A stretch of DNA of 21,530 nucleotides from Candidatus Undinarchaeales archaeon (GTDB taxonomy: Archaea; SpSt-1190; JASMDC01): positions 1-21,530 of the forward strand of contig JASMDC010000052.1 of the NCBI GenBank assembly GCA_030753015.1, written 5' to 3'. Within the stretch, counting starts at the first letter, position 1; the number at the start of each line of letters is the position of its first letter. This document shows positions 1,912-7,344 of this stretch, in pieces. The notes under the pieces were generated by a model. That model was not told the origin of the DNA and ran no database searches. It saw only the letters and a list, made by a program, of their open reading frames with translations. A program made the translations under genes and the position numbers.

Positions 1912-3579
1912 ATGACTCAACAACCTATGCAGGTCATGCTCCTCCCCGAGGGAGCACTGAGGACCAAGGGACGCGACGCTCAGCGGATGAACATCCTCGC
2001 CGCGCGCACCGTGGCGGAGGTCGTGCGCACCACGCTCGGCCCCAAGGGCATGGACAAGATGCTCGTGGACACCCTCGGCGATGTGATCGTCACCAACGAC
2101 GGTGTGACCATCCTGGGCGAGATGGAGATCGAGCACCCCACCGCCAAGATGATGATCGAGGTCGCCAAGGTGCAGGGCGAGGAGATCGGCGACGGTACCA
2201 CCACCGCTGTTATGGTGGCCGGCGAGCTCCTCAAGAACGCCGAGGGGCTCCTCGACCAGCACATCCACCCCACCATCATCGTCAAGGGGTACCGCCTTGC
2301 CGCGTCCAAGTCGCAAGAGATCCTCGAAAAGATCTCCAAGAAGGTCACCACCAAGGACAGGACAGTCCTGCTCAATGTGGCCAAGACCGCTATGACCGGC
2401 AAGAACGCCGAGGGCGGTAAGGAATTCCTTGCCGAGCTCGTCGTAAAATCCGTGCTCCAGGTCGTGGAGAAGGACGGCAAGAACGTCACCGTCGACAAGG
2501 ACAACGTCAAGATCGATAAGAAGCAGGGCGGGTCCCTTGATGACACCGAGCTCATCGAGGGCATTATCATAGACAAGGAGCGCGTGCACTCCGGCATGCC
2601 CCGGAGCATTAAGAAGTCCAAGATCGCCCTCATCAACTCGGCCATCGAGATCAAGAAGACCGAGACCGATGCCAAGATCAACATCAACGATCCCAACCAG
2701 CTGGACGCCTTCCTCCTCCAGGAGGAGAAGATCCTCAAGGGAATGGTCGGCAAGATCAAGAAGGTCGGAGCAAACGTCCTCATGTGCCAGAAGGGCATCG
2801 ACGACCTCGCCCAGCACTACCTTGCCAAGGAGGGCATCTTCGCCGTCCGCCGGGTCAAGAAGTCCGACATGGACAAGCTGGCCAAGGCCACCGGCGCTCG
2901 CTTGGTGACCAACCTCGACGATCTCGATAAGAAGGACCTGGGTCACTCCGACCTCGTCGAGCAGCAGAAGATCGCCGGGGACGACATGACCTTCGTCCGT
3001 GGGTGCAAGGGCGCCAAGGCAGTCACCCTCCTCGTGCGGGGCGGCACCGAGCACGTGGTCAACGAGCTCAAACGCGCTGTCGAGGACGCCCTCGACGACG
3101 TCATCGCCACCATCAAGGACGGCAAGGTCGTGGGTGGCGGCGGTGCCGTCGAGGTGGAGATCGCCAGGGCCCTGCGCAACTTCGCCGATACCATCGGCGG
3201 GAAGGAGCAGCTGGCCATCAACGCCTTCGCTGACGCCATAGAGGTGTGCCCCAGGGCGCTTGCCGAGAACGCGGGAATCGACTCCATCGACAATCTTGTG
3301 GCACTACGTGCGGCCCACGAAAAGGGCGGCAAGTGGTATGGCCTCGAGATCCTCCAGGGCAAGGTCATGGACATGTACGAGGCTGGCGTCATCGAGCCCA
3401 CGCTTCTCAAGTCCCAGGCCATCAAGTGCGCCTCGGAGGTCGCCGAAATGATCCTGCGCATCGACGACATTGTGAACGCCAAGGAGCTCTCCAAAGGAGG
3501 GGGCGGCGGCATGCCCGGCGGTATGCCTCCAGGTATGGGCGGTATGCCTCCGGGTATGGGGGGCATGGGAGGCTTCTAG
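1912..3579 (+). CDS. thsA: Thermosome subunit (group II chaperonin)
   Basis: A subunit of the archaeal cytosolic double-ring chaperonin (CCT/TRiC relative), which folds proteins in an ATP-driven cage with a built-in lid. At 555 residues it has the normal family length. Visible signatures are [15 protein letters not shown] (residues 39-53), TNDGVTIL (61-68), GDGTTTAVM (93-101) with the ATP-binding and catalytic region, and [11 protein letters not shown] in the second equatorial part. The C-terminus is the usual Gly/Met tail with [11 protein letters not shown]-type repeats, which projects into the cavity. It starts at an ATG behind a GGTGAT Shine-Dalgarno site. It faces the TBP gene tail to tail. 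It appears to be a single-gene transcript with its own promoter. Which paralogue (alpha, beta or gamma) it is cannot be told from one sequence, so the symbol is generic. Confidence 0.97.
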
Positions 3580-3581
3580 TA

Positions 3582-3706
3582 CTCCTACCTTTCATTCCCT
3601 TGATCCCAGAGAAATATCCCACCCTTCACGATAGGTCGGCGGCGTTAGACAGGGGATTTGGGGGAGAGATAAGCTATATCTCCCCCATTTCTTTCAGCTT
3701 CTCAAG
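3582..3706. repeat. 125-base tandem repeat, copy 1 (decayed TBP 3' end)
   Basis: Aligns without gaps to 3707-3831 with about 14 mismatches by my hand count. Read on the minus strand, its right-hand end still encodes LEKLKEMGEI followed by a stop, against LEKLKEVGEI and a stop in the real TBP gene. It therefore includes an untranslated second copy of the last ten TBP codons plus the flanking 3' region. Confidence 0.9.
3658..3686. terminator. Hairpin in the thermosome/TBP convergent region
   Basis: A GGGGGAGAGATA arm pairs with TATATCTCCCCC around a 3-base loop, with one mismatch. It sits between the converging thermosome and TBP genes and could end either transcript. The corresponding hairpin in the second repeat copy, overlapping the TBP stop codon, is weaker. 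Confidence 0.4.
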
Positions 3707-3831
3707 CTCCTACCTTTCATTCCCTTGATTCCAGAGAAAGATCGCACTCTTCAGGATAGGTCGGCGATGTTAGACAGGGGATTTGGAGGAGAGTTGAGCT
3801 ATATCTCCCCTACTTCCTTCAGCTTCTCGAG
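3707..3831. repeat. 125-base tandem repeat, copy 2 (contains the real TBP 3' end)
   Basis: The second unit of the direct tandem repeat. It runs into the TBP coding sequence, whose stop codon is at 3799-3801, so the last 33 bases are functional gene. The two copies are adjacent, with no spacer. Confidence 0.9.
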
Positions 3832-4400: not shown

Positions 4401-5438
4401 TTACCTGTTCCTGACGGGTTTCTCGAGCGACTCCACGATGAAGCCCGATTCCATCCCGTCACCGTTCGGGAGCGTTCGGGGGGGAACCGATGTCCTCTTG
4501 GCCCGTGCCAGGATTCTACCCTTACGGGTGCACCGTTCACCGGCCGGTTCCACTCCGAGGAACTCCCTGAGCTCGTGGTAGCGGACACGCAGGGTGATCT
4601 CCGTGATACCGGCCACGAAGGCCGCATACTTCTGGGTGAATCCCCTCCCGTTATTTCTCGCTGCGAGGTAGAGCGACGCCAGAGCGATGCCCTTCGGATC
4701 CTTACCATTCGTGATGTCGGTATTCTCGACCGCACGAACGATGCGCAAGGACTCCATCTCCACCTCTCGGGGGAGCTCCAGGTCCGATGCGAACTTGGGT
4801 ATGAAGTCCTCGGGGCTCGCCGGCGCGATCCTGATGCCGAGCGCGCGGGATACGAGGCGGTGGGCCTTGCCGATGTCCCTTTTGGGTCTACGGAACACCA
4901 GGGAGAGGTCCTTGAGGGTCACAGGGCACCCGTTCTGCTTACACACGGCATAGAGTACCCCTGCGAGAACGCACTCAGACGAGCGTCCGCGGATGCGGGA
5001 CTTCCTGAGGAACTGGCGGTAGAGGTAGGCTGTCTGTTCCTCCACGATACGGGGGAGGTTGAGGAAAGAGACCGCGCGGGTGAGCTCGGTGAGACCGTCC
5101 CTGAGGGCGATGTCCTTGGAGGGAGTGGCGAAACGGCTTTGCCACTTGCTGAGGCGCTTGTACTGATGCCTCATCTGGCCGCGGGGGAGTTTATTGAGAT
5201 CAGCCGAGGTCCCGATCTTCGTTGACAGCCCTCCATCATGCTTCGTCAAGGACAATGGAGCGCCGACACGCTCCTTGTCGTTGCTGGAGTCGTCACCGAA
5301 CGAGCGCCATTCCCTGCCTGTGTCCACCATGGACTCGCTGATGACGAGGCCGCACGTGGAGCAGACGAGCTCGGCACGGATTGAATCGTTCTGCAAATCG
5401 TTCGATCCGCATTCAGGACAGTCAGTGATAAAATCCAT
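4401..5438 (-). CDS. tfb: Transcription initiation factor B (TFB)
   Basis: The archaeal homologue of TFIIB, which bridges the TBP-TATA complex and RNA polymerase and reads the BRE element. The N-terminal zinc ribbon has Cys7, Cys10, Cys26 and Cys29 (CPEC and CSTC). A B-reader/linker follows (EWRSFGDD, then RVGAPLSL and GGLSTKIG). Two cyclin-like repeats span about 105-190 and 200-295; the second ends in ITLRVRYHELREFLG. At 345 residues it is longer than the usual 300-310. The extra C-terminal stretch of about 45 residues is basic, then Gly/Glu-rich, and is unfamiliar to me. The start is supported by a TATA box 30 bases upstream. It is divergent from the ATPase gene and followed by TBP. Other TFB genes may exist elsewhere in the genome. 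Confidence 0.96.
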   Translation of the reverse strand: MDFITDCPECGSNDLQNDSIRAELVCSTCGLVISESMVDTGREWRSFGDDSSNDKERVGAPLSLTKHDGGLSTKIGTSADLNKLPRGQMRHQYKRLSKWQSRFATPSKDIALRDGLTELTRAVSFLNLPRIVEEQTAYLYRQFLRKSRIRGRSSECVLAGVLYAVCKQNGCPVTLKDLSLVFRRPKRDIGKAHRLVSRALGIRIAPASPEDFIPKFASDLELPREVEMESLRIVRAVENTDITNGKDPKGIALASLYLAARNNGRGFTQKYAAFVAGITEITLRVRYHELREFLGVEPAGERCTRKGRILARAKRTSVPPRTLPNGDGMESGFIVESLEKPVRNR

Positions 5439-5464
5439 TCAGGGTCTTGGACGATCTCCCGGCC

Positions 5465-5471
5465 TTATATA
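5465..5471 (-). promoter_or_regulatory. TATA box of the TFB gene
   Basis: TATATAA on the minus strand, centred 30 bases before the ATG at 5438. It predicts a leader of only a few bases, consistent with the absence of a Shine-Dalgarno site. Confidence 0.65.
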
Positions 5472-5543
5472 CGTTTTCATTCTGTCACGATAATTCTACC
5501 GATATGGACCGGTACTATGGCCTCCGTGACGGAGAGACTAGGG

Positions 5544-5566
5544 GGCGCCCGTTCAAGGCGGGCGCC
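5544..5566. other. GC-rich hairpin between TFB and the integrated element
   Basis: Arms GGCGCCCG (5544-5551) and CGGGCGCC (5559-5566) pair perfectly around a 7-base loop, TTCAAGG. The inner five pairs and loop mimic a tRNA T-arm, but no matching acceptor, D or anticodon arms could be found. It may be a terminator or structured upstream element. Confidence 0.4.
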
Positions 5567-5606
5567 TGTATCGTCCCAGCTATACAAATTGTACGCGTAA
5601 ATAAAA

Positions 5607-5626
5607 AGCGCCGGGAACGGGATTTG
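5607..5626. repeat. Partial tRNA-Ser copy, distal attachment-site repeat
   Basis: Twenty bases identical to 7259-7278, which are the last 18 bases of tRNA-Ser(GCU) plus two flanking bases. This is the pattern left when an integrase inserts DNA at a tRNA 3' end: one intact tRNA and a distal copy of its 3' segment. The two copies are 1652 bases apart and enclose the ATPase gene. The T-rich run next to it on the minus strand (5600-5606) may be the tRNA's former terminator. Confidence 0.75.
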
Positions 5627-5708
5627 GGATCGGGATTTACCAATAAAAAACGAAAAAACGCTAGATGAAACGGTAAAAACCAAATTGTATAAACCTGAAG
5701 AGAACATA

Positions 5709-5715
5709 TTTATAG
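5709..5715 (+). promoter_or_regulatory. TATA box of the ATPase gene
   Basis: TTTATAG centred at 5712, exactly 26 bases before the ATG at 5738, so the message is predicted to be leaderless. No Shine-Dalgarno site is seen. Confidence 0.6.
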
Positions 5716-5737
5716 TATTTGTTCTATTATAGTTAGT

Positions 5738-7060
5738 ATGTTAGCTTCACTCAATGATTGGAATCCTTGGTGGAGTGATAGGGATGCCATACGGGTTCTG
5801 ATGGGCAAGGAAGCTGAGGTGCTTCACGAGCTTGTCCGATTCCTCGAGGTCCGGGAGATCAAGGTTCTTACAGGGGTGAGAAGAAGCGGCAAGTCGACCC
5901 TTTTCTATCAACTTATAGATCACCTCATCAAGACAGGCGTTCCCCCAGAGAATATTCTACTCATCAACTTCGACGATGATGTTCTAAGTAAGGCCACGCT
6001 CCGGGAGCTCTTCGATACCTATCAAGCGAATATCTTCTGCGGAAAAGGTACCTATTTCTTCATAGATGAAGCCCACCGTTGTCGCGAATGGGCTCTCTTC
6101 GTTCGAAAGCTGTATGAGACCAAGCAGGTGAAACAGGTATTCATAACTGATTCCTCATCATCGTTCATCCCGAAGGAATATGCTCAAGTGTTCACGGGAA
6201 GGAACGTGAAGTACGTACACCACCCCCTCAGCTTCCGGGCCTATGTGGAATGGAACGGTGCGCCCAAGAATCCCGATATTATGTCGAGCTTCGAGGAGAA
6301 CAGACTACAAGGCCTCCTCAAGGACTATATGGAATACGGGGGTTTTCCCGAGGTCTTCTTCAAGGAACCGAGCTGGAAGAAGATCATACTCAAGGAGTAC
6401 TTCGATGACATCCTCTACAAGGACATCATAGATCGATTTGGGATCGACCTTAACAAGGCTCGGGATTTTGCATTGTTCCTGATGTCGAATAATACAAACC
6501 CCTTCAGCGTGAGGCGGTACTCGCGCGAACACGGACTGTCCCTGCAGTCGGTAGAGAAATACCTCGCCCTGTTCGAAGAAGTGTTCCTGTTCTTTCCCGT
6601 TCCACGGTTCGACTACTCCCTTAGATCACAGCAGCTCAGCCAGAAGAAGGTGTATGCGATCGATCACGGTCTCGCCAACGTTTCAGGATTCCGCTTCAGC
6701 GAGAACAAGGGGAAGGTCGCTGAGAACATCGTCTTCATCGAGTTGATGAGGCGTCTGTCGAGCCTCGAGAAGGTCTTCTATTGGCAGGATCCGAAGCGAC
6801 AGCATGAGATCGACTTCCTCGTTCAGCAGGGCCTTAGACCAGCAGAGCTCATCCAGGTCTGCTGGGATCCCTCCGAACCTTCGACTAGAGTCCGGGAGAC
6901 AGAAGCGCTGTCCTTGGGCCTGGAGACGTTCGACCTCAAGGAAGGTGTCGTGATCACACAGAAGTACGAGGGTGAAGAGGCCATTGATGGCAGGAAGATC
7001 AGATACGTCCCGCTGTGGAAGTGGTTGCTCTCGACAAAGCAAAGTGCATCCGAGGAATGA
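5738..7060 (+). CDS. AAA-family ATPase with DUF4143-type C-terminal domain
   Basis: 440 residues with the layout of the AAA_14/DUF4143 family, common and often multi-copy in archaea and in bacterial accessory DNA. The Walker A motif is GVRRSGKST (46-54) and Walker B is FFIDEAHRC (about 107-115). The C-terminal half has the winged-helix region (FSVRRYSREHGLSLQSVEKYL) and a PD-(D/E)XK-like core: AENIVFIELMRR, then HEIDFLV, then LIQVCWD. The last motif has Gln-Val-Cys where an active nuclease would have Glu-x-Lys, so cleavage activity is doubtful. The ATG at 5738 fits the TATA spacing. Base composition looks less GC-rich than its neighbours. It is the only gene between the two tRNA-Ser-derived repeats. 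The cellular role of the family is not well established; defence or toxin-antitoxin links are speculation here. Confidence 0.9.
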   Translation: MLASLNDWNPWWSDRDAIRVLMGKEAEVLHELVRFLEVREIKVLTGVRRSGKSTLFYQLIDHLIKTGVPPENILLINFDDDVLSKATLRELFDTYQANIFCGKGTYFFIDEAHRCREWALFVRKLYETKQVKQVFITDSSSSFIPKEYAQVFTGRNVKYVHHPLSFRAYVEWNGAPKNPDIMSSFEENRLQGLLKDYMEYGGFPEVFFKEPSWKKIILKEYFDDILYKDIIDRFGIDLNKARDFALFLMSNNTNPFSVRRYSREHGLSLQSVEKYLALFEEVFLFFPVPRFDYSLRSQQLSQKKVYAIDHGLANVSGFRFSENKGKVAENIVFIELMRRLSSLEKVFYWQDPKRQHEIDFLVQQGLRPAELIQVCWDPSEPSTRVRETEALSLGLETFDLKEGVVITQKYEGEEAIDGRKIRYVPLWKWLLSTKQSASEE

Positions 7061-7179
7061 CACGACCCCTTTTTCGTCAAGTAAAGAGCTACGGGATCGG
7101 TGGTCAGGATCCACCGGCAATAATACGGTCGACATCCCCCCAGTAAGCCGTTTCTTCATAATCTGTGCAGGCATACCTA

Positions 7180-7211
7180 TGGAATCGTCAACCTAGCGCT
7201 TGACGATTCCA
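7180..7211. repeat. Perfect 12-base inverted repeat near the right end of the island
   Basis: TGGAATCGTCAA (7180-7191) and TTGACGATTCCA (7200-7211) are exact reverse complements around an 8-base spacer. It lies about 120 bases after the ATPase stop and 48 bases from the tRNA-Ser repeat. It could be a terminator or a recombinase/accessory protein site. No T-run follows. Confidence 0.75.
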
Positions 7212-7260
7212 CCAAGAGGTGCTGTGTCGCACGACCCCTCCCTGTCTTGATAATAATGAG

Positions 7261-7344
7261 CGCCGGGAACGGGATTTGAACCCGTGTGGGGTCTCCCCCA
7301 CAAGCTTAGCAGGCTTGCGCCATACCAGACTTGGCTATCCCGGC
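7261..7344 (-). tRNA. tRNA-Ser(GCU)
   Basis: Reads on the minus strand as an 84-base class II tRNA. The acceptor stem GCCGGGA/TCCCGGC is perfect, with discriminator G. The anticodon arm is CAAGC-CTGCTAA-GCTTG, so the anticodon is GCT (reads AGC/AGU serine codons). The long variable arm GTGGGG-GAGA-CCCCAC is diagnostic of Ser. The T-arm is ACGGG-TTCAAAT-CCCGT. No CCA is encoded and no intron is seen. A TTTTAAA promoter box lies at 7378-7384. Its 3' end is duplicated at 5607-5626. Confidence 0.97.

Follow-up and report, generated by a model that had tools for sequence, protein, structure and literature searches.

A single ATPase gene between copies of a tRNA-Ser 3' end: a probable one-gene cassette without an integrase in an archaeal genome

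The window, by which we mean the whole 21,530-nucleotide stretch analyzed here, is one complete contig of a metagenome-assembled archaeal genome (3.85 Mb, 117 contigs). It holds the following features, given with coordinates, strand and the basis of each call:

4401..5438, minus strand: gene for transcription factor TFB, beyond the distal repeat copy (Pfam TFIIB/Zn ribbon; sequence)
5600..5626, minus strand: distal copy of the tRNA-Ser 3' end (repeat finder, genome-wide uniqueness, alignment)
5627..7251, no strand: unit between the repeats (composition; ORF list)
5702..5724, no strand: inverted repeat GAACA-N13-TGTTC, just 5' of the start codon (sequence; family-wide scan)
5738..7060, plus strand: AAA_14/DUF4143 ATPase, 440 aa (Pfam; PADLOC; AlphaFold2)
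7252..7278, minus strand: tRNA-proximal repeat copy, comprising the tRNA 3' end from the T-loop and the 3' flank (repeat finder, alignment)
7260..7344, minus strand: tRNA-Ser(GCU), the probable integration target (ARAGORN; Rfam tRNA match of 64 bits in a search of the source genome)

Because tRNA-Ser(GCU) is called on the minus strand, its 3' end lies at 7260, and it points towards the ATPase gene. The repeat finder aligned 5600–5626 with 7252–7278 over 27 nt with 2 mismatches (25/27 identical), and within this alignment 5607–5626 and 7259–7278 agree at 20 of 20 nt, as the first-pass annotation of this DNA had claimed for the tRNA-Ser 3' end and its flanking bases. The repeat begins in the T-loop, near tRNA position 56, ends roughly 2 nt beyond the discriminator and recurs in the window with a period of 1,652 bp. 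Its 19-mer was matched twice in the window compared to 0.01 times expected in shuffles, and in the whole 3.85-Mb genome it occurs at these two places only when 0–1 mismatch is allowed, the next-best match being tRNA-Ser(CGA) with 2 mismatches; the objection that the match is a common dispersed sequence is thereby excluded. The 20-nt length of the repeat is short and counts against reading the locus as a cassette. After the distal copy the minus strand reads TTTTTATT, which may be the original trailer of tRNA-Ser.

The order of intact tRNA-Ser, cargo and distal tRNA end is the pattern of integration at a tRNA 3' end, orientation included. An intact tRNA with a 3'-end duplication flanking a unit is also the mark of tRNA-targeting integrative elements of the tyrosine-integrase type, and both are present here; an integrase, which such elements carry themselves, was found in the unit neither in the ORF list nor with Pfam. 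The GC content of the unit is 0.498 compared to 0.573 for the remaining window. The TATA-like promoter region of the TFB gene (about 5461–5470) lies outside the unit, and a search of genome contigs with TFB as anchor found no relatives. Two other structures were seen in the window. A GC-rich hairpin (GGCGCCCG-TTCAAGG-CGGGCGCC) lies at 5540–5570, with the distal tRNA copy on one side and the promoter of TFB on the other, and at 3572–3821 there are two adjoining 125-nt direct repeats, 86% identical, whose start is close to where the thermosome gene ends.

The only long ORF between the repeats, 5738–7060, matched the Pfam profiles AAA_14 (1e-29) and DUF4143 (6e-23), which upholds the earlier claim that a DUF4143 ATPase is the one gene in the unit. 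The best PADLOC match was PDC-S01 (PDLC04787, 3.7e-98), covering nearly the whole protein and placing it in that group. In PDC-S01 as described, an ATPase is joined to a PD-(D/E)XK-type domain (PMC12988326); in the C-terminal DUF4143 part of the window protein the corresponding motif appears degenerate (HEIDF...LIQVC). An AlphaFold2 model based on 74 homologues in the alignment reached a pLDDT of 92.6, and in this model residues about 1–320 are predicted to adopt a STAND/AAA+ fold with an ATPase and a winged-helix part. The closest fold matches were 2fna and 2qen (Z 16.3 over about 270 residues), followed by NLR and CED-4 chains. From the upstream sequence it is plausible that the gene has a leaderless promoter of its own. 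The inverted repeat at 5702..5724 is possibly an operator: its position resembles that of the paired palindromes of relatives, but it is not itself significant, and the window locus was not among the high scorers in a family-wide palindrome scan. By its PDC-S01 assignment the ATPase is a candidate antiviral defense gene, a role that agrees with the location of DUF4143 genes beside BREX genes at some Acinetobacter plasmid loci among the stretches examined and of a plasmid occurrence near a viperin gene.

We scanned the same genome for further duplications of this kind, using the last 16 nt of each of 41 tRNA genes (0–1 mismatch) and up to about 10 kb on either side. Copies were found for 5 of the 41 tRNAs, every one downstream and on the same strand, compared to about 0.004 expected per class; the control classes, upstream or on the other strand, yielded 0/41 in the same scan. 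Each of the five cassettes so bounded contains 0.85–4.1 kb of unrelated cargo, and none of them encodes an integrase. The four cassettes other than that at tRNA-Ser are:

tRNA-Gly(TCC), copy at +853 bp (L070:8754-9684): HicB-HicA toxin-antitoxin pair
tRNA-Gly(GCC), copy at +2,373 (L077): IS1634-family transposase
tRNA-His, copy at +4,119: glutamate dehydrogenase and three further genes
tRNA-Leu(TAG), copy at +2,744: CPA2-type antiporter

IS1634 transposases make long direct repeats, and the tRNA-Gly(GCC) cassette may therefore differ in origin. The two tRNA-Gly cassettes (L070 and L077) also resemble each other at their distal (right) ends, where the similarity continues for about 20 nt past the tRNA copy into the cassette, and no third copy of this shared sequence was found in 0.74 Mb of the genome. 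XerA-like tyrosine recombinases and fragments of them (PF00589) are present on other contigs and are candidates that could supply integration in trans; no recombinase gene stands beside a tRNA in the stretches examined. Two of the recombinase loci share an extra N-terminal region (IRLQKTDDDRISLALPYD...): L108:2-2571, at a contig end, encodes two XerA-like proteins in tandem, and at L109:915-1991 a stop codon interrupts the gene.

For comparison we used nine genomes of the same class, all distant and outside the family and order of the source genome. Their 127 further tRNAs have many downstream copies, mostly 78–181 bp from the tRNA, and the inserts so delimited are short, non-coding and rich in hairpins. 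Homologous inserts of 100–180 bp stand behind different tRNAs, and the copy is in each case specific to its tRNA. Eleven such loci in four of the genomes (L146, L148, L149, L150, L106, L107, L115, L116, L119, L120 and L122; G002, G003, G004 and G008) consist of a tRNA and, 78–181 bp downstream, a second occurrence of its own 3' end, exact or nearly so, the insert containing 2–4 hairpins and recurring linkers such as TTGACCAAAA, GGGGTTTGGAAAGG and CACCCCAAGAAAA; some form tandem arrays. In the full set of 168 tRNAs, the length of the longest exact match downstream was bimodal, with a background of up to 11 nt; at least 12 nt was reached for 29 of 168, including two tandem duplications or arrays, whereas the upstream control reached 12 nt only once. 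Cas1 (PF01867), the hallmark enzyme of casposons, had no match in the source genome (G000) or the nine relatives, and PF00589 recombinases are absent from all class genomes except G000 and G007; G002, G003, G004 and G008 have neither. Several relatives whose tRNA ends are duplicated lack PF00589 recombinases altogether, so a different type of enzyme may be at work.

A search with an alignment of four homologues collected 80 loci of the ATPase family, mostly from DPANN archaea, with some from bacteria and methanogens. The loci contain 18 tRNA calls, of which 8 are no more than 500 bp away from the ATPase gene compared to 1.6 expected, and in 7 of the 8 the 3' end faces that gene; the tRNA-adjacent calls include some doubtful intron models, one inherited locus counted as two (L194/L197) and one locus, L211, that holds two. 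At L211 (Woesearchaeota), a DUF4143 gene stands alone between 115-nt, 99% identical copies of an intron-containing tRNA. This repeat starts at the D-arm, continues for 7 nt beyond the tRNA 3' end and has a period of 1,671 bp compared to 1,652 bp in the window; one tRNA copy begins at the first base of the contig, so its outer flank lies beyond the contig. Exact tRNA-end copies were found at no other tRNA-adjacent DUF4143 gene, including two in G002.

Flanking direct repeats of any kind were present at 15 of 74 DUF4143 loci compared to 3 of 161 control genes taken from these loci (p=3e-6), leaving about 80% of the DUF4143 loci with none. After removal of repeats that recur more than twice or are formed by operators, 10 of 74 remained (p=7e-4). 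Those set aside as insertion evidence were a dispersed repeat at L225 (Methanosarcina), repeats with more than two copies at L162, L200 and L230, and an operator palindrome at L161. Four loci, L180, L187, L188 and L191, have the 3' end of a protein-coding gene as their repeat (at L187, judging from its C-terminus, an ftsZ-like gene). Frame and stop codon are intact in both copies, and most of the differences between the copies are synonymous or conservative, in keeping with an element that carries a gene end of its own. The case of L235 is ambiguous, a third repeat copy belonging to a neighboring paralogue, and without it the synonymous excess is weak (6/10 codons, p=0.02). In a relative, the target gene of L191 has no DUF4143 gene after it, but the contig stops about 170 bp further on. 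At L162:7685-12409, three different ATPase genes lie in a row with similar 43-nt repeats between them, like an array of single-gene cassettes. No DUF4143 relatives were found in viral contigs.

Units of the family are also shared between genomes, with 95% identity over 1,356 bp for L193/L195, 92% over 1,487 bp for L214/L225, 81–86% over about 1,370 bp for L202/L205/L208/L213 and, across phyla (Diapherotrites and Woesearchaeota), 83% over 1,313 bp for L163/L217. In near-identical pairs from different genomes the ATPase gene and its upstream palindromes are common to both and the available flanks show no similarity. For L163/L217 and L173/L182 two palindromes lie upstream, and the first of them marks the exact start of the similarity. 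The motif GTTAC-N8-GTAAC occurs 63 times within 320 bp upstream of DUF4143 genes compared to twice elsewhere in 0.91 Mb; it is paired at L157-L190 and L217, usually near positions -58 and -25, and its conservation extends over several archaeal phyla. Other branches of the family commonly have paired palindromes 32–34 bp apart with different sequences. Such pairs could be operators or element ends. Together, the loci of the DUF4143/AAA_14 family show that it moves elsewhere as a single-gene unit.

Based on these results, we consider the locus to be probably (about 0.7) a minimal one-gene cassette without an integrase, inserted at the 3' end of tRNA-Ser(GCU) by a recombinase acting in trans. The cassette (5627–7259) would comprise a single DUF4143/AAA_14 ATPase gene of the PDC-S01 type with its own promoter. 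An intermediate, circular or linear, would carry a copy of the 3' end of its target gene and recombine with the chromosomal tRNA in a Campbell-type event, which would restore the tRNA and leave behind the distal copy of its end. The unit encodes no recombinase, so the enzyme would have to act in trans, and the XerA-like tyrosine recombinases of the genome may be the source. That a single gene had integrated as a unit at a tRNA 3' end without an integrase was already proposed in the first-pass annotation, and five lines of evidence now favor it: the uniqueness of the repeat, the four further tRNA-bounded cassettes with zero control matches, the DUF4143-only unit of L211 in another phylum, the duplicated gene 3' ends and the near-identical units with unrelated flanks. 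The GC content of the unit, below that of its surroundings, and the tyrosine recombinases elsewhere in the genome also speak for it. On the other side stand the absence of an empty tRNA-Ser to TFB junction from the genomes compared, the roughly 80% of DUF4143 loci free of flanking repeats and the derivation of all data from a metagenome-assembled genome.

The main competitor is a relic, in which a larger virus or plasmid element with an integrase had inserted at tRNA-Ser and eroded to the ATPase gene and the att copies. The tyrosine recombinases and recombinase fragments of the genome, the frequent decay of tRNA islands and the GC content of the unit, below that of its surroundings, are all in keeping with such a history. 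It would, however, require that decay in five independent cassettes spared one or a few intact genes along with intact ends, and it must contend with a unit of almost equal size and content in another phylum and with near-identical single-gene units in unrelated flanks; we regard it as unlikely. Still less probable is a target-site duplication of about 20 nt produced by a staggered cut after tRNA-Ser, whether by a transposase or a Cas1-like enzyme. Casposons are found in tRNA genes (PMC6563490), and the homologous inserts of class relatives, each with a copy specific to its tRNA, are what such an enzyme might leave. Against this, none of the ten class genomes has a Cas1 match, a transposase and clear terminal inverted repeats are both absent from the unit, and the mostly synonymous or conservative differences between protein-gene copies are those of a gene end borne by an element. 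Least probable is a tandem duplication of tRNA-Ser whose second copy decayed, with the ATPase gene as a chance neighbor: duplicated tRNA tails can persist, and tandem repeats follow tRNAs in some relatives, yet identity here ends sharply at the T-loop with no 5' tRNA remnant beside the distal copy, the same boundaries recur at several tRNAs and the ATPase family is mobile elsewhere.

Mobility as a single-gene unit may explain the wide scatter of this ATPase gene. With 9,986 archaeal and 29,494 bacterial occurrences, PDC-S01 is reported to be the fourth commonest defense candidate in prokaryotes (PMC12988326), yet its spread lacks an explanation. A bolder proposal, which we think doubtful, is that DUF4143/PDC-S01 genes are a new kind of mobile element of 1.3–1.7 kb with one gene, whose ATPase takes part in its own mobilization; as part of the same proposal, and just as doubtfully, the element would extend from the paired upstream palindromes to the stop codon and insert at the 3' ends of tRNA and protein-coding genes in archaea and bacteria. 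Should single-gene cassettes be moved in trans to gene ends, a large share of the genes that appear scattered among small archaeal genomes could have a traceable transfer route, and their boundaries could be read from sequence.

Several known systems resemble the unit in part. The window ATPase belongs by profile to PDC-S01 (PADLOC; PMC12988326), a defense-gene candidate of a type mostly awaiting experimental validation; the available text of that source describes no tRNA sites, target duplication or single-gene mobility. COG1373 is listed in a study of transferred genes (PMC10782964), and among open-access papers naming DUF4143 or COG1373 no title concerned how the family moves. Acinetobacter plasmid dif modules are likewise small and free of integrases, some carry toxin-antitoxin genes, and they are thought to be moved in trans by host Xer recombinases (PMC13141974, PMC6449649); they use pdif sites on plasmids, whereas the window unit lies at a tRNA 3' end in the chromosome. 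Casposons share insertion at tRNA genes and short duplications but encode Cas1, which the ten class genomes lack. Archaeal integration at the 3' ends of tRNA and protein-coding genes with short repeats is well known (PMC6563490). The cryptic integrated elements of Thaumarchaeota use both kinds of target and have short direct repeats, the majority under 26 bp with a median of 17 bp (PMC6563490). These elements are defined by their integrase, the smallest having 2.6 kb and four genes including that integrase, compared to 1.65 kb, one gene and no integrase for the window unit. A one-gene unit of this kind would be overlooked by surveys in which the integrase gene defines an integrated element.
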